From a virus: a stretch of 22,582 nucleotides of DNA. The notes under the pieces are model-generated. The model was given only the letters and a program-made list of their open reading frames with translations, was not told where the DNA came from and made no database searches. Of this stretch, positions 801-6,095 are shown piece after piece. Made by a program: the position numbers and the translations under genes. The stretch covers positions 1-22,582 of the IMG/VR virus record IMGVR_UViG_3300032323_000323; one strand, given 5' to 3'. The number at the start of each line of letters is the position of its first letter. Position 1 is the first letter of the stretch.

Positions 801-1084
801 TAGACCCCGAGATAAGGAACCGAATACGTGTGGCAGCGGCGGCATATGCCTACGAGGTCGAGAACGATCCGATCCTGACAGATGCAGAGTTCGACGCCCT
901 GTGCTTGACTATCAACCCAGAAGTAGATACAGGGAACGCTGTGATGGACAAGTTCTTCCGTGAAGAGTTTGACCCTAACACTGGCTCATGGGTTCATCGT
1001 CACCCCAACAAAGAAGGTTTGGCACAGATCGCAGCAATGCACAGGGAACACAAGAACAAACTGGTTGACACTGTTAACCAATAG
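797..1084 (+). CDS. Small phage protein of unknown function
   Basis: A 95-residue protein that starts with an ATG overlapping the previous stop (ATGA at 797-800). Residues about 10-35 (AYAYEVENDPILTDAEFDAL) resemble the N-terminal helix of NAD-dependent DNA ligases, where a YY/D...SDAEYD pattern occurs. The rest lacks every other ligase motif, so it is not a ligase. A later part, FREEFDPNTGSWVHRHPN, looks like a conserved phage motif but I cannot name it. It is the last gene before the tRNA region, and a -35-like TTGACA lies inside its 3' end. Confidence 0.7.
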   Translation: MIDPEIRNRIRVAAAAYAYEVENDPILTDAEFDALCLTINPEVDTGNAVMDKFFREEFDPNTGSWVHRHPNKEGLAQIAAMHREHKNKLVDTVNQ

Positions 1085-1094
1085 GGTGTAGAGT
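1065..1094 (+). promoter_or_regulatory. Sigma-70-like promoter for the tRNA region
   Basis: A perfect TTGACA (1065-1070) is followed 18 bases later by TAGAGT (1089-1094, 4 of 6 matches to TATAAT). The first base of the broken tRNA follows 10 bases after the -10 box, which is where transcription of a tRNA operon would be expected to begin. The -35 box lies inside the end of the upstream gene. The call rests on sequence only. Confidence 0.5.
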
Positions 1095-1103
1095 ATAGAG
1101 ATA

Positions 1104-1133
1104 CTACCCGTAGCTCAGTTGGATAGACGAGAC
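1104..1133 (+). pseudogene. 5' fragment of a broken tRNA gene
   Basis: CTACCCG (1104-1110) has the place of a 5' acceptor strand. It is followed by TA and by GCTCAGTTGGATAGA (1113-1127), a textbook D-arm start. The D-stem does not close well (GCTC against GACG), and no anticodon arm, T-arm or matching acceptor strand follows in the next 250 bases. Instead the sequence runs into the reverse complement of an HNH gene whose stop codon is the TCA at 1115-1117, inside the D-arm. A TTGTGGT at 1134-1140 looks like a His anticodon loop but is the complement of two His codons of the HNH gene. Confidence 0.6.
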
Positions 1134-1402
1134 TTGTGGTGTTCTTCCCGATGACAGTTGGCGCAGAGCATCACACACTTATCAAGTTCAGAGGTAATCT
1201 TGTCCCAAGAACGTAAGCGAAGTTTACTCCAGTCCACATCCTTTTGTAGTGGGTCTGTGTGGTGGAACTCAAGTGCGCCGTAAAATCTTTTGTAACCACA
1301 GTGGGCGCAACAGCCACCCTTGTAGATTATCGCTTTCTCTTTGATCTTGATCCACCTTTTTACTTGATTCTTGTACAGGTCTTGCTTATCTTTATACGGC
1401 AT
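1115..1402 (-). CDS. HNH homing-type endonuclease
   Basis: A 95-residue protein with the full layout of small phage HNH endonucleases. There is a zinc pair C32-x2-C35 (CAHCG), then LEFHHTDP at 44-51 with the catalytic-type histidines H47/H48, and CVMLCANCHREEH from 76 with the second zinc pair C80-x2-C83. HNH enzymes of this size nick or cut DNA and often spread by homing. It is the only reverse-strand gene in the left 19 kb. It is wedged between tRNA sequences: its stop codon lies in the D-arm of a broken tRNA, and its AGGA ribosome binding site is the complement of the acceptor strand of tRNA-Arg. It was probably inserted here. Confidence 0.88.
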   Translation of the reverse strand: MPYKDKQDLYKNQVKRWIKIKEKAIIYKGGCCAHCGYKRFYGALEFHHTDPLQKDVDWSKLRLRSWDKITSELDKCVMLCANCHREEHHKSRLSN

Positions 1403-1406
1403 CTTC

Positions 1407-1481
1407 GGTCCTATGGTGTAAGGGATAACATATCCGTCTTCTAAACGGCTGATCTTGGTTCGAATCCAAGTAGGACCACCA
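1407..1481 (+). tRNA. tRNA-Arg (anticodon TCT)
   Basis: The acceptor strands GGTCCTA (1407-1413) and TAGGACC (1471-1477) pair perfectly. The discriminator A is followed by an encoded CCA (1479-1481). The anticodon loop CTTCTAA (1438-1444) carries TCT at 1440-1442 between CCGT and ACGG. The T-arm is CTTGG, TTCGAAT, CCAAG. The D-stem is weak, with two pairs (GT/AC). It reads AGA codons, which some genes of this phage use heavily (see the recombinase). Confidence 0.93.
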
Positions 1482-1531: not shown

Positions 1532-1542
1532 CGGGTAGGCCA
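1532..1542 (+). pseudogene. Possible 3' end of the broken tRNA
   Basis: CGGGTAG (1532-1538) is the exact reverse complement of the acceptor strand CTACCCG at 1104-1110, and it is followed by G and CCA, as a tRNA 3' end would be. No T-arm can be folded in the bases just before it, and tRNA-Arg plus the HNH gene lie between the two halves. It is therefore either a decayed 3' end or a chance match. Confidence 0.3.
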
Positions 1543-1546
1543 TGCA

Positions 1547-1605: not shown

Positions 1606-1681
1606 GCTGGTGTAGCTCAGTTGGTAGAGCAGTTGCCTTGTAAGCATCAGGTCGGGGGTTCGAGTCCCTCCACCAGCACCA
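1606..1681 (+). tRNA. tRNA-Thr (anticodon TGT)
   Basis: A complete cloverleaf. The acceptor strands GCTGGTG (1606-1612) and CACCAGC (1671-1677) pair fully, and the discriminator A and CCA end at 1681. The D-arm is GCTC-AGTTGGTA-GAGC. The anticodon loop CTTGTAA (1637-1643) has TGT at 1639-1641, and the T-arm GGGGG/TTCGAGT/CCCTC has one wobble pair. The anticodon stem has one mismatch (T-T). It should read ACA and other ACN threonine codons. Confidence 0.95.
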
Positions 1682-1697: not shown

Positions 1698-1880
1698 ATG
1701 GGTTATGAACCAGACGACTGGGACTACATACTGTCCACAGTGTGTAATGCCTACTTCTCAGACTTGAAGTTCGAGGAACTGGTTGATTGTGTTATGCTAT
1801 CCTCGAACAAGGAAGAACTTGACGCCGCTGTAACAGCAACCATCAGACTATGGGAGATAGTCAACCATGAAGAGCAATAG
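1698..1880 (+). CDS. Small acidic protein of unknown function
   Basis: A 60-residue acidic protein (MGYEPDDWDYILSTVCNAYF...) with two predicted helices and no motif I recognise. It starts 16 bases after the encoded CCA of tRNA-Thr, with AGGG as a modest ribosome binding site, and its last 14 bases overlap the start of rIIA. The tight overlap suggests co-translation with rIIA. Function unknown. Confidence 0.6.
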   Translation: MGYEPDDWDYILSTVCNAYFSDLKFEELVDCVMLSSNKEELDAAVTATIRLWEIVNHEEQ

Positions 1881-3807
1881 CACACTGCGTGTCGTAGAGA
1901 CCAATAGCCAGACGACCAAAGACTTCACCATCCAAGCCTCTGGCAAGATGTTCCACATGGTGATCTCTGGCCTCTACTCAGACAAGCCCAAGTCCATCAC
2001 CCGTGAAATCTGGTCCAATGCCTTTGATGCACATGCTATGGTGGGCAAGGAGGCTGTCCCATTCGAGGTGACTTTCCCTACTGCCATCACACCCACCTTC
2101 ACCTGCCGTGACTTCGGACCGGGGATTGCCCACGATGACATGGAGGGTTTCTATACTGTGCTGGGTCACTCCACCAAGGAGAATACCAACAAGGCTGTAG
2201 GTAAGTGGGGCGTTGGGCGTATGTCACCCATGTCTTATACCGATACCTTCTCTGTCGTTTCCCGTCACAAGGGCATGGTCAGCTACTATGCGGTCCAACT
2301 CGGTCCTGACGGATCACCACAACTCCATGTCCTCGCTGAGCCTCAGCCCACTGCCGATCCTGATGGTCTTGAAGTCTCCTTCCCTGTGAAGCGTCAGGAC
2401 ATTCAACAGTTCCAAACCGCAGCCAATGTGATTTCTGTGGGCTTCGATGTTCCACCTGTTGTCACCAACTCCAAGGAGAAGTCTTTCAGCCCCCTCAAGA
2501 AGATGTACGAGGGCAAGGACTACTACCTGTACGAACACGAGTCGATGTCTGGTGCCTTTGCTCAGATGGGCTGTGTCCTGTACCCCATCCCCTTCGAATA
2601 CCTACCGAGAAACTCATGGGCCTCACGCAGCATCGTCTACAAGTTTGACATTGGTGATCTGGAAGTCACTGCATCACGCGAAGCCCTGTCCTTCGGTCCC
2701 AATGATCCTACTGCTGCCAGCATCAGGGCCAAGACTGAGATAGTTGAACAGCAACTGTTTGATGCACTACAGGCTGAGGTTGAAGCACAGCCCAAGATGT
2801 TCCTTGCAGCCAAGCTGGCACCCAAACTGCGTAGGTTCATTCGTAGTGGTGATTTCAAGTGGAAGGGTATGCAAATCCCGAAGGTGTGGAACCTTGCGAA
2901 GTACCAGAAGGTTTCTCTGCACTGTGGTTACAAGGGCTACCGTCAGAAGACTGCGGGGTTTGGTATTGACAGAGACCTGAGTGTGACCGAGGACCACACC
3001 ATCTTCATTCAGGATTGGTCAGACAAGAAGGGCTGTGCTCGTGCTGCGACCCGTATCTGTAGTGCTATTGACAGCTACAAGTACTACGTCTGGGTCAGGG
3101 CTGATCTGACAGACAAAGAACAGAAGGCTGAGGTTGATGCCCTGATTGCTGAATTGGACTTCCCTGTGAAGTACGTGAAGGACTTGCCGGATGATGGCCC
3201 CAGACAGTCTGGCACTCGCAGTAAAGTTATGTTGTCCCACCTGAGAAGTGGACACCTAGTCAAACATGATATGGATGCCACAGAGTTTAGTGGGGGTGGT
3301 TACTACTGTAAGATGTCGAACAACGAAGTGCCGCACCAGATACGCAGGGCATATGCAGTCTTCTTAAGCAAGTTTGGGAAGGAGCTAGTGTTGGTGCCTA
3401 AGACCCTCTGGAGTAAGTTTGAGGGACAGGCAAACTGGCTTGATGCAGAAGTTGCTTTGGAACATCTTGTGAAGGAGGAGGTAAAAAACGTGAATGAAAT
3501 CTTTGGGAATGTTTACGACGCTTACCCCTTCAACCACCTCAGAAATCTTGAGGAAGCAGGCGGCATTGTCGGAGAGTTCTCAAAGAAGATTAAGGAACCT
3601 AAGCCAAAGCAATACCTTGATCTTGGCTCTACCCAATGGGGGGACTTACTGAACCACTACAATTTGCCTGCCTTCTCCAGCAAGGGTTCTGAGGCCAAGT
3701 ATAAGAAAATCCTTGACAAGTACCCACTGCTTACCCTATGCAGGGGTGACAATACCGAGAACTTCCTGCAATACATCCAACTGATCGACAACGCAGCAAA
3801 GGAGTAA
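1867..3807 (+). CDS. rIIA: rIIA-like protein with GHKL ATPase domain
   Basis: A 646-residue protein whose N-terminal 200 residues carry the Bergerat (GHKL) ATP-binding motifs. The N-box is EIWSNAFDAH with N51, the G1-type motif is RDFGPGI at 81-87, and the glycine-rich lid is KWGVGRMSP at about 113-121. This matches the RIIA family of T4-like phages, in which RIIA and RIIB act at the host membrane, affect lysis timing and protect against exclusion by lambda Rex. The remaining 450 residues have no motif I can name. It lies directly before an rIIB-like gene, the same order as in T4, which strengthens the call. GGGAG just upstream of ATG 1867 is the likely ribosome binding site. The biochemical role of RIIA is poorly known even in T4. 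Confidence 0.85.
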   Translation: MKSNSTLRVVETNSQTTKDFTIQASGKMFHMVISGLYSDKPKSITREIWSNAFDAHAMVGKEAVPFEVTFPTAITPTFTCRDFGPGIAHDDMEGFYTVLGHSTKENTNKAVGKWGVGRMSPMSYTDTFSVVSRHKGMVSYYAVQLGPDGSPQLHVLAEPQPTADPDGLEVSFPVKRQDIQQFQTAANVISVGFDVPPVVTNSKEKSFSPLKKMYEGKDYYLYEHESMSGAFAQMGCVLYPIPFEYLPRNSWASRSIVYKFDIGDLEVTASREALSFGPNDPTAASIRAKTEIVEQQLFDALQAEVEAQPKMFLAAKLAPKLRRFIRSGDFKWKGMQIPKVWNLAKYQKVSLHCGYKGYRQKTAGFGIDRDLSVTEDHTIFIQDWSDKKGCARAATRICSAIDSYKYYVWVRADLTDKEQKAEVDALIAELDFPVKYVKDLPDDGPRQSGTRSKVMLSHLRSGHLVKHDMDATEFSGGGYYCKMSNNEVPHQIRRAYAVFLSKFGKELVLVPKTLWSKFEGQANWLDAEVALEHLVKEEVKNVNEIFGNVYDAYPFNHLRNLEEAGGIVGEFSKKIKEPKPKQYLDLGSTQWGDLLNHYNLPAFSSKGSEAKYKKILDKYPLLTLCRGDNTENFLQYIQLIDNAAKE

Positions 3808-3811
3808 CTCA

Positions 3812-4591
3812 ATGCGTGTCCCCTATACCCTCTCTGCCGAAAGCGTCACCGTGTTTGTTAGCGGCAAGATGCGTACCGTCCTCTCTGGCAACAAGAACTT
3901 CGAGAAGCTCCGTGAGCACCTTCGTGGACCTGAGCATGACGCTGCCACCATCCTCACCCTGTCTGATCGTGAAGAGACTATTCGTCAGTCTACTGGCAAG
4001 TCTGTTGAGGTTATCAACGGCACGGTCTACTACAAGGGCGAAGAGCTTCACAACGCTCTGACCAATAAGCTGCTGAACCTGCTGGACGATGGCTTCGATG
4101 CTACCCCTTGGATCAAGTTCCTTGAGAAGATGATGGACAACCCCTCGTTCCGCTCTCGCAACTGCCTCTACGGGTTCCTTGAGCACTTCAATGCCCCGAT
4201 CACCCCAGAAGGTAACTTCATCGCCTTCAAGCGTGTTGGTTGGAACTGGAAAGACCTGCACACTGGTACGATGGACAACAGCCTTGGTAAGGTGGTGAAG
4301 ATGGATCGCAGCAAGGTCGATGATGATCCCCAGCACACCTGTTCGTCTGGCCTGCATGTCTGTGCTGACGAGTACCTCAAGGGCTATGCCACTGGCGAGA
4401 ACAACCGCACTCTGGTGGTTGAGGTGAACCCTGCCAATGTGGTTGCTGTTCCCTACGACTACAACTTCTCGAAGATGCGAGTGTGTGAGTACAAGGTTCT
4501 TGCGGAGATTGAACCCAAAGAAATCCCTGACATTCTCTCTGAGGAGATGTATGACTTTGATACCAGAGAGGAACTGGATGATTGGGTTTAA
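3812..4591 (+). CDS. rIIB: rIIB-like protein
   Basis: A 259-residue protein matching the RIIB family of T4-like and other phages. The most telling part is residues about 95-200, where FLEHFNAPITPEGNFIAFKR is followed by CSSGLHVCADEYLKGY. This is the conserved cysteine/histidine block seen in RIIB-like proteins and in some stand-alone phage proteins. RIIB works with RIIA at the inner face of the host membrane. It starts 5 bases after the rIIA stop, so the two are one transcription unit. AAAGGAG at 3798-3804 provides the ribosome binding site. Twelve of its 13 arginine codons are CGN and only one is AGA, unlike the recombinase 0.5 kb downstream. Confidence 0.83.
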   Translation: MRVPYTLSAESVTVFVSGKMRTVLSGNKNFEKLREHLRGPEHDAATILTLSDREETIRQSTGKSVEVINGTVYYKGEELHNALTNKLLNLLDDGFDATPWIKFLEKMMDNPSFRSRNCLYGFLEHFNAPITPEGNFIAFKRVGWNWKDLHTGTMDNSLGKVVKMDRSKVDDDPQHTCSSGLHVCADEYLKGYATGENNRTLVVEVNPANVVAVPYDYNFSKMRVCEYKVLAEIEPKEIPDILSEEMYDFDTREELDDWV

Positions 4592-4941: not shown

Positions 4942-4980
4942 AGGGTAGCACAGGTCTTTCTTCATGGCAAGTGCTACCTT
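4942..4980. repeat. Inverted repeat / RNA hairpin in the recombinase leader
   Basis: GGTAGCAC (4944-4951) and GTGCTACC (4971-4978) form a perfect 8-bp stem, extendable to 10 bp with one G-T pair, around a 19-base loop. It ends 30 bases before the recombinase ATG. It could be a recombination core (attP) with arm sites to its left, a protein-binding site, or a leader hairpin that limits translation. The loop is long for an intrinsic terminator, and the following T-run is poor. Confidence 0.45.
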
Positions 4981-5009
4981 CAACTATTTTCTCTGGGCTA
5001 GAGGACGAC

Positions 5010-6095
5010 ATGAAATACACTCGTAAAGTCAAGAACAAGGATGGGTCTGTCGTTCACAGGTTTGTCCCACCACCAGAGGTTCTCAAGGCTGGTGTCGTTA
5101 AGTCTCAGACCTTCAAGGATGGTAGGGCTGCACGTTACGAAGTCCCTAGACTGATGGAGAAGGTGGAGGCTTATCGAAGAGGAGAGATCAAGGAAGGGAA
5201 CGTAGGACCAAGCTCCAAGATCATCCATGTCATCAACTATTACCTGTCGTCCAAGCAGTTTGCCTCTCTCGCTAACAGGTCTCAGATCAAGTACGAGGCA
5301 GACTTGAAGAGTGTTTCTCGTTCAGACCTTGGCCATATCTCAATTAACAAATTGACTGCGAAGATATGCAAGGAAGCCTACGAGGATTGGGTTCAAGCAC
5401 ACTCGGTTGCAAGGGCCAATGAGAGGGCAAGGATACTTTCCATCGTACTCAACTTCGCCCGATCTCTCGATCTTATCAACGACAACCCAATGTCCAAGGT
5501 GAAGAAGCTGAGGCACGAACCCAAGACACCGATCTGGACGAGGGATCAGGTTGAAGTGTTCCTCGACACTGCCTTCACCAAGTTCGAGTGGAGAAACGTG
5601 GGGCTTCTGGTGATGATGTGCTACGAGTGGGCGCAAAGACCAACAGACATCTGCCACCTCAAGTGGGACAACCTCGACCTCGACAATGCAAGGATGAAGG
5701 TCAAGCAATCCAAGAGAGGTGCAGAGGTAGAGATGCCCATTGAGGAACCCCTGCTGACCATGCTCAAGGAACAGAAGGAAGATTGGGGCTTCCAGAAGTA
5801 CGTGGTGCCACACCACAGGGCCAGCGATAATGCCTATGTCCCCTTGAAACCTGAATCGTTTGGGCCTATACTTCGCCAGATAAAGCAGGCATGTGGCTTG
5901 CCAGAAGAGTTGAAGATTGGACACCTGAGAAAGACTGCCATCACAGAGTTTGTAGCTGCGGGAGTTGACAGCACAGGCATCATGCAGGTCACAGGACACA
6001 AGAACATCGCCAGCCTCAACCCATACATGAGGCACACATACGAGGGTGCTAAGACAGCACAGAACGTCAGAAAGGGTTACAAAGATGGAACATGA
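5010..6095 (+). CDS. int: Tyrosine recombinase (phage integrase family)
   Basis: A 361-residue tyrosine recombinase. The N-terminal half (to about 165) holds an arm/core-binding helical domain. The catalytic domain shows box I Arg R210 in WAQRPTDICHLKW, a lysine in the beta-hairpin KVKQSKRG (about 232-235), box II GHLRKT at 304-309 with R307, box III H330 in TGHKNI and the nucleophile Y339, nine residues after H330 as in the family. The usual box II His lines up with G304. Such enzymes integrate phage DNA or resolve dimers. ATG 5010 is preferred over an upstream GTG at 4971 because GAGGA lies just before it and 4971 is inside the inverted repeat. Eighteen of 24 Arg codons are AGA/AGG, unlike rIIB and the replication genes. 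Confidence 0.88.
   Translation: MKYTRKVKNKDGSVVHRFVPPPEVLKAGVVKSQTFKDGRAARYEVPRLMEKVEAYRRGEIKEGNVGPSSKIIHVINYYLSSKQFASLANRSQIKYEADLKSVSRSDLGHISINKLTAKICKEAYEDWVQAHSVARANERARILSIVLNFARSLDLINDNPMSKVKKLRHEPKTPIWTRDQVEVFLDTAFTKFEWRNVGLLVMMCYEWAQRPTDICHLKWDNLDLDNARMKVKQSKRGAEVEMPIEEPLLTMLKEQKEDWGFQKYVVPHHRASDNAYVPLKPESFGPILRQIKQACGLPEELKIGHLRKTAITEFVAAGVDSTGIMQVTGHKNIASLNPYMRHTYEGAKTAQNVRKGYKDGT

Follow-up and report, generated by a model that had tools for sequence, protein, structure and literature searches.

A probable mobile HNH endonuclease cassette that splits a phage tRNA-Arg(TCT) gene and carries a replacement with the same anticodon

The DNA analyzed here, hereafter the window, is a 22,582-base virus contig (IMG/VR record IMGVR_UViG_3300032323_000323) in which an HNH endonuclease gene ends inside a broken tRNA gene. 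How did a nuclease gene come to lie there, and what became of the tRNA that it interrupts? We argue that positions 1128 to about 1531 are probably a mobile, tRNA-targeting HNH homing endonuclease cassette, similar to SegB, which carries a same-anticodon replacement for the gene that it splits. The features of the locus are as follows, with positions given in the window.

1065-1094, plus strand: candidate sigma-70-like promoter, TTGACA-18-TAGAGT, ahead of the resident tRNA (consensus scan, 10/12 matches)
1104-1127, plus strand: 5′ half (24 nt, CTACCCGTAGCTCAGTTGGATAGA) of the resident, type I tRNA-Arg(TCT) gene; the same bases start the intact gene in the related loci L004, L005 and L006
1115-1402, minus strand: HNH endonuclease gene, 95 aa (Pfam PF01844, PHROG 2255)
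1407-1481, plus strand: replacement tRNA-Arg(TCT), type II, complete with CCA (ARAGORN; Rfam, 61.9 bits)
1482-1531, no strand assigned: spacer travelling with the cassette; spacer plus following remnant match L003 at 93% over 61 bases
1532-1545, plus strand: 3′ remnant of the resident tRNA-Arg, with the same bases as the tRNA end and junction of L005-L007
1546-1605, no strand assigned: 60-bp insert between the remnant and tRNA-Thr, absent from the loci compared for it
1606-1681, plus strand: tRNA-Thr(TGT), resident neighbor (ARAGORN; Rfam, 73 bits)

An earlier note on this DNA had described the 5′ half of a tRNA running into an antisense HNH gene. That half is present at 1104-1127, where ARAGORN and Rfam called no tRNA, and relatives hold a complete tRNA-Arg(TCT) gene that matches it. 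The relatives of the locus (L002-L007) are metagenomic contigs found via the neighboring RIIA gene; cultured phages appear only among the parallels described below, and a nucleotide search of the whole region against a phage collection gave matches only to tRNA-Thr and RIIA, with no close cultured relative. Window positions 1055-1127 match the relatives that hold the complete gene there at 71-72 of 73 bases. This complete type I gene, CTACCCGTAGCTCAGTTGGATAGAGCAAGTGCCTTCTAAGCACTGGGTCGGGCGTTCAAATCGCTCCGGGTAGGCCA, stands at the junction site in L004-L007, with small differences in L005 and L007, and none of these four carries the HNH gene, so that the empty site is found and the insertion proposed in the earlier note is borne out. 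Empty sites were also found for the Acinetobacter and Vibrio parallels. The flanks of L006 are 96.7% identical to the window over 4.2 kb; the alignment reaches 1127 and resumes at 1605, and between the aligned flanks L006 has an intact tRNA-Arg(TCT) and tRNA-Thr. In L005-L007, tRNA-Thr follows the intact tRNA-Arg 1 nt later; it is gone from L004. The window copy is broken after GGATAGA in the D-loop, at the junction 1127/1128. The start of the L007 gene (4662-4738) differs from the window 5′ half by one D-loop change, GGAGAGAGC in place of GGATAGAGC, located where the window copy is broken; this could be a cut-resistant change or chance.

The earlier note had also stated that no second half follows in place. 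This needed amending, as 14 nt of the 3′ end, CGGGTAGGCCATGC, comprising the type I 3′ acceptor strand, CCA and flank, lie at 1532-1545 (by chance, this stretch should hold about 4e-7 such matches); the rest, including the anticodon and T arms, is missing as stated. Comparison with the relatives thus places an intact resident gene at this site in the past and a split one now, accompanied by a replacement with the same anticodon. The description as a dead remnant holds for the resident gene but not for the whole locus: the insert brought in a complete, divergent tRNA-Arg(TCT) at 1407-1481 that took over the function, which was therefore not lost.

Two pieces of one tRNA on either side of a nuclease gene might also be exons interrupted by a spliced intron. 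Homing endonucleases are often found in group I introns, including those in tRNA genes, and PDDEXK_5, the nuclease family of one parallel described below, is also that of the tRNA-intron enzyme I-Ssp6803I. However, Rfam detected no group I or group II intron in the window or the parallels, the window “exons” lack the anticodon and T arms, and the parallel in phage CP14 lacks the resident anticodon loop. With exon parts missing, and with neither an intron core nor exons that could be joined, the intron reading is refuted for the window and keeps practically no probability. With no intron called by Rfam, the HNH gene lies outside introns and inteins, as a free-standing homing endonuclease does.

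A tyrosine integrase gene (4971-6095) lies 3.8 kb away, and since attP cores are often copies of host tRNA segments, the tRNA piece might alternatively be the attP core of that integrase. At the same place, however, the relatives have an entire phage tRNA gene together with its promoter region, and the 24-mer occurred in only 3 of 84,980 genomes, all in Burkholderiales tRNA-Arg(TCT) with different flanks. We rejected this reading as hardly credible on the basis of the intact phage tRNA in the relatives and the 24-mer search. The candidate promoter at 1065-1094 lies within the 73-bp block conserved in L004-L007 and reads towards both tRNAs, although about 0.9 sites as good are expected by chance in the consensus scan. 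Coding genes of the window use AGA and AGG 102 times in ~6,080 codons, so a tRNA-Arg(TCT) has codons to read.

The 95-aa product of the HNH gene scored 26.2 bits against the Pfam profile (cut-off 21.4; E 9e-6) and matched PHROG 2255 with E 3e-27. Its relatives share invariant CxxC, HH and NCH motifs (C32, C35, H47, H48, C80, N82, C83 and H84). The window protein lacks the HTH or zinc region that longer relatives have at the N-terminus, and its activity is thus putative. The closest HNH protein, encoded in L100, is 74% identical; identities of 71, 82 and 37% at the three codon positions form the pattern of a selected coding gene. The product is of the HNH kind and lacks the GIY-YIG catalytic domain of the SegB family. 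Searching solved structures with a profile built from the aligned HNH proteins yielded no useful match.

As the earlier note had observed, the HNH stop lies in the D-arm: TCA on the plus strand at 1115-1117 corresponds to tRNA positions 12-14, and the last codons together with the stop (1115-1127) come from the antisense of the tRNA D-arm. Many HNH relatives likewise end inside an adjacent tRNA, intact or broken, whose bases provide the stop codon. We considered a special signal that places HNH stops in tRNAs and rejected it, as conserved tRNA bases suffice: U8-A9-G10, the antisense AACTGA and the anticodon-loop TAA give a stop in one frame to any open reading frame that enters a tRNA.

The type II tRNA-Arg begins 4 nt past the start codon of the HNH gene. 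Aligned pairwise, the type II (75 nt) and type I (77 nt) genes match at 43 bases, so the cassette holds a linked, sequence-diverged copy with the same anticodon as the broken gene, as in a cleave-and-rescue element. By inspection, the anticodon loop (CTTCTAA) is identical in types I, II and III (the last from L002, below), and all three keep the A after the D-loop GG (A20, an arginine identity element). When the type II tRNA was searched in viral contigs, only the contig of L003 matched and a donor was not found. In the spacer, a candidate HNH promoter (TTGACA-16-TATAAC, minus strand, 1519-1492) was noticed by eye; the consensus scan does not call it. The 60-bp insert at 1546-1605 gave no Rfam match, and its origin was not found among the loci compared. 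It contains a GGGCGC...GCGCCC pairing followed by CCA and is perhaps a decayed tRNA.

Over 5.5 kb, the backbones of L003 and L004 agree at 99.8%, but L004 has type I without an HNH gene and L003 has type II. In L003, the type II tRNA (75/75 bases) and the spacer are accompanied by an HNH gene truncated after codon 31, so a decayed stage of the arrangement is on record. Different tRNA alleles and a decayed HNH gene in near-identical backbones indicate that the cassette moves. Backbone identity to the window is 96.7% for L006, 96.5% for L002 and 92.7% for L003. It is nevertheless L003, the most distant of the three, that has the cassette in common with the window, whereas L006 and L002 do not. 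The cassette has thus crossed between lineages and spread horizontally against the backbone phylogeny, as expected of a free-standing homing endonuclease. The cassette is also more similar between the window and L003 (97.4% over a 233-bp piece) than is the backbone (92.7%; p = 0.002). Leaving out the conserved tRNA weakens this excess to p = 0.06, and the discordant distribution therefore carries more weight. In L100, the HNH gene and a tRNA-Arg(TCT) stand back to back beside an unrelated gene, in an unrelated neighborhood.

A tRNA-Arg with anticodon TCT is present in 7/7 genomes of the group despite its three types, and tRNA-Thr in only 4/7. In L002, the type I gene is broken nine bases in and is followed by a truncated, odd tRNA-Arg(TCT) and then by a complete type III tRNA-Arg(TCT). 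A NUMOD4-HNH_3 gene (PHROG 59) comes after the type III tRNA, and the sequence rejoins within the last bases of tRNA-Thr. Judged from this arrangement, L002 is a second, independent replacement of the same tRNA in the group. Besides itself, the L002 NUMOD4-HNH gene had three relatives, 0 of which were near a tRNA, too few for the family to serve as a control.

The truncated element of L002 (3204-3270) is a copy of a possible tRNA-Arg(TCT) that lacks the D-arm and has a 20-nt variable region (AGTACCGTAATGGAGTCAAT). The full form was seen in L180 (Limnohabitans phage DC31, 2288-2366), L194 and L195, and in total in 3 viral contigs and one cultured phage. Its acceptor and T arms are sound and CCA is encoded, although ARAGORN does not call it; in DC31 and L195 it comes directly after an HNH gene.

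The association of the HNH gene with tRNA-Arg(TCT) extends to its wider family. A profile search fetched 80 HNH relatives, which were reduced to 48 at 85% identity, and 25/48 of these non-redundant relatives had a tRNA-Arg(TCT) within 100 bp. In the same loci, the Arg-TCT share was 25/63 among tRNAs within 100 bp versus 7/201 further off (Fisher p = 4e-12), a statistic that describes this clade and not HNH genes at large because the relatives were ranked by likeness to the window HNH. The remaining half or so have no tRNA-Arg(TCT) nearby, and most of those sit among other tRNAs. Broken-tRNA fragments occurred at 0.19 per kb near HNH genes versus 0.04 per kb further away, with small counts (7 and 7). 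Orphan D-arms numbered 7 in 8.2 kb beside HNH genes versus 2 in 211 kb elsewhere; two of the 7 (L131 and L160) overlap the HNH start and may alternatively be a conserved leader. The tRNA of L130 is broken at GGATAGA, as in the window. In L154, an orphan 3′ half beginning at the TCT anticodon follows the HNH gene, and an intact tRNA-Arg(TCT) lies 27 bp upstream.

Two further arrangements were seen among the relatives. L155 (equivalent to L013/L014) has tRNA D-arm pieces at both ends of the HNH gene, CGTAGCTTAGTT before the start and AACTAAGCTA at the stop, which suggests two insertions or an inverted duplication. L016 (892-1869), L017 and L018 (both 2704-3684) encode HNH relatives of 325-326 aa with two tandem HNH domains, downstream of tRNA-Arg(TCT).

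Cultured phages provided parallels at other tRNA genes. Among Acinetobacter Saclayvirus, phiAbaA1, Aci01-1, TAC1, phi1_092033, Acba_22 and UOL-KIMZ-24 have allele A of tRNA-Ile(GAT) without an HNH gene. Aci05 and Aci02-2, which are identical over this stretch, have an intact allele B, then a PHROG 2255 HNH gene, then the 3′ half of allele A, which starts in the anticodon loop and provides the stop codon of the HNH gene. Allele B stands without an HNH gene in Ab_121, Liucustia, KissB and CP14. Taken together, the Saclayvirus tRNA-Ile loci read as a full cycle, from the resident allele through the cassette in a split resident to the replacement alone. In Acinetobacter phage CP14, both halves of a split tRNA-Tyr(GTA) flank a PDDEXK_5 nuclease gene (E 1e-16) and a divergent, intact tRNA-Tyr(GTA); in its layout, this is the architecture of the window with an unrelated, PD-(D/E)XK nuclease. 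The same architecture has arisen in other phages and with other nuclease families. KVP40-like phages have three different tRNA-Asn alleles at one place, two of them adjoining an HNH relative of the window gene. Vibrio phage VH1_2019 (L189) has an unannotated HNH gene of 127 aa at 1351-1734 that joins tRNA-Asn exactly at its first base, its stop codon being tRNA positions 8-10; the gene is absent from ValKK3 and phi-ST2.

In five separate cases (the window, L002, L154, Aci05 and CP14) the tRNA beside the nuclease matches the broken tRNA in its anticodon, an agreement far beyond chance. The pattern might nevertheless reflect passive mosaicism: the mutual likeness of phage tRNA genes makes them recombine frequently, and the HNH gene would be a chance hitchhiker beside an incoming tRNA-Arg. 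Phage tRNA arrays are indeed mosaic, L004 lacks tRNA-Thr, L003 and L002 are rearranged at this place, and some break points fall in conserved tRNA arms. However, mosaicism leaves unexplained why nucleases of three families lie inside split tRNAs, in five separate cases, and why the HNH family is so strongly paired with tRNA-Arg(TCT). It fits the data less well than the cassette explanation, and we consider it improbable.

In the cassette explanation, the mobile unit would be a free-standing HNH homing endonuclease gene coupled to tRNA-Arg(TCT), from 1128 to about 1531. The HNH protein would cut the genome of a co-infecting phage in its resident tRNA-Arg(TCT) gene, and repair templated by the cassette-bearing genome would place the cassette in the break, splitting the resident tRNA into 1104-1127 and 1532-1545. 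The cassette tRNA, with the same anticodon, would stand in for the lost function, and the HNH gene could later decay or disappear while the replacement tRNA remains. That the HNH protein cuts the resident tRNA gene is inferred from the usual action of such enzymes and from SegB, which is known to cut within tRNA genes (PMC13096335). Since the cassette tRNA differs in sequence, it should escape cutting, a presumed resistance to which both the break points and the divergence point. Retention of the isoacceptor would be maintained by selection. A single cut site common to all cases was not supported, as breaks fall in the D-loop (window, L130 and L158) or in the anticodon loop (Aci05, CP14 and L154); because they differ among cases, the break points may be repair junctions rather than cut sites. 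Also counting against the cassette explanation are the roughly one half of HNH relatives that have no tRNA-Arg(TCT) nearby, the missing N-terminal region of the window HNH protein, and the tendency of T4 free-standing endonucleases to cut away from their own insertion site (PMC2988022).

Host defense offers a further explanation, which is compatible with the cassette explanation and not opposed to it: tRNA-cutting nucleases of the host would select a resistant tRNA allele, with the endonuclease as its vehicle. That a homing endonuclease can provide tRNAs to counter a defense has a published precedent in SegB, which amplifies tRNA-Tyr against Septu (PMC13096335), and the tRNA persists after HNH decay in L003 and KissB. 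The anticodon loop, a frequent target of tRNA-cutting defenses, is nonetheless CTTCTAA in types I, II and III, and we regard defense-driven exchange as very unlikely.

Among known systems, T4 SegB is alike in being free-standing, lying by tRNA-Arg (segB insertion site, tRNA-Arg/tRNA-Ile; PMC2988022, Table 1), spreading with the surrounding tRNA genes and cutting inside tRNA genes. Its motif RAWTSGAAC (PMC13096335) is the antisense of the conserved T-arm GTTCSAWTY. In contrast to the window gene, SegB is a GIY-YIG enzyme, its gene sits between tRNA genes rather than in a split one, and it has not been described with a same-anticodon replacement for a gene that was broken. The same or similar HNH genes lie between tRNA genes in phage arrays (mycobacteriophages, Acinetobacter, Vibrio KVP40-like phages and Cronobacter CR3), and HNH genes have been suggested to spread tRNA clusters (PMC6409571). 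I-Ssp6803I homes into a tRNA gene and shares its Pfam family (PDDEXK_5) with the CP14 nuclease, but there the tRNA is saved by group I intron splicing, whereas the window has no intron and a second tRNA gene takes over. In Allomyces atp6, a mitochondrial mobile endonuclease element with a foreign gene part restores the gene that it interrupts via the copy that it carries; unlike the phage case, this concerns the 3′ ends of protein genes in fungal mitochondria. Synthetic Cleave-and-Rescue and home-and-rescue drives (PMC7951863, PMC7968924) likewise link a gene-destroying nuclease to a recoded, resistant copy, but they are engineered, act in insects and target protein genes, whereas the phage cutting step is inferred.

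Homing endonucleases in tRNA arrays that spread with tRNAs are already known (SegB; HNH genes in tRNA clusters, PMC6409571). What appears new is that a resident gene is split and accompanied by a replacement with the same anticodon, and that this recurs with several nuclease families. In the open-access papers searched we found no description of this arrangement, nor of tRNA bases used as an HNH stop codon. As other phages have the same arrangement, it has the appearance of a recurrent kind of selfish gene. For a broader proposition we see the chances as even: phages would carry a natural break-and-rescue class in which several unrelated nuclease families (HNH, NUMOD4-HNH, PD-(D/E)XK and perhaps GIY-YIG) recognize conserved arms of tRNA genes, destroy a resident isoacceptor and install a linked, cut-resistant tRNA with the same anticodon. 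In this proposition, tRNA-Arg(TCT) would be the preferred target of the PHROG 2255 HNH clade, and such elements would drive a large part of the allele turnover among phage tRNAs.

The presence of tRNA genes in phages and the fast turnover of their alleles are usually attributed to codon usage or to escape from tRNA-cutting defenses. Selfish nucleases that break a tRNA gene and supply its replacement, keeping the anticodon and swapping the sequence, would be a third and directly testable force, and the cassette would be the natural counterpart of engineered cleave-and-rescue drives. This would also account for broken tRNA halves that adjoin nuclease genes in phage genomes. For annotation, nuclease open reading frames can end inside tRNA genes and tend to be missed, as with the HNH gene of VH1_2019.

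Profile matches elsewhere in the window identified RIIA/RIIB-like genes, ThyX, a primase-helicase, DNA polymerase A, endonuclease I and a tyrosine integrase. The RIIA- and RIIB-like genes (PHROG 612 and 609; 1867-4591) co-occur with the tyrosine integrase (4971-6095), and the same window also encodes a T7-type endonuclease I and DNA polymerase A. Upstream of the tRNAs, a lone 95-aa open reading frame at 797-1084 corresponds to only the N-terminal NAD+-binding domain of an NAD-dependent DNA ligase (Pfam Nlig-Ia, E 4e-10).
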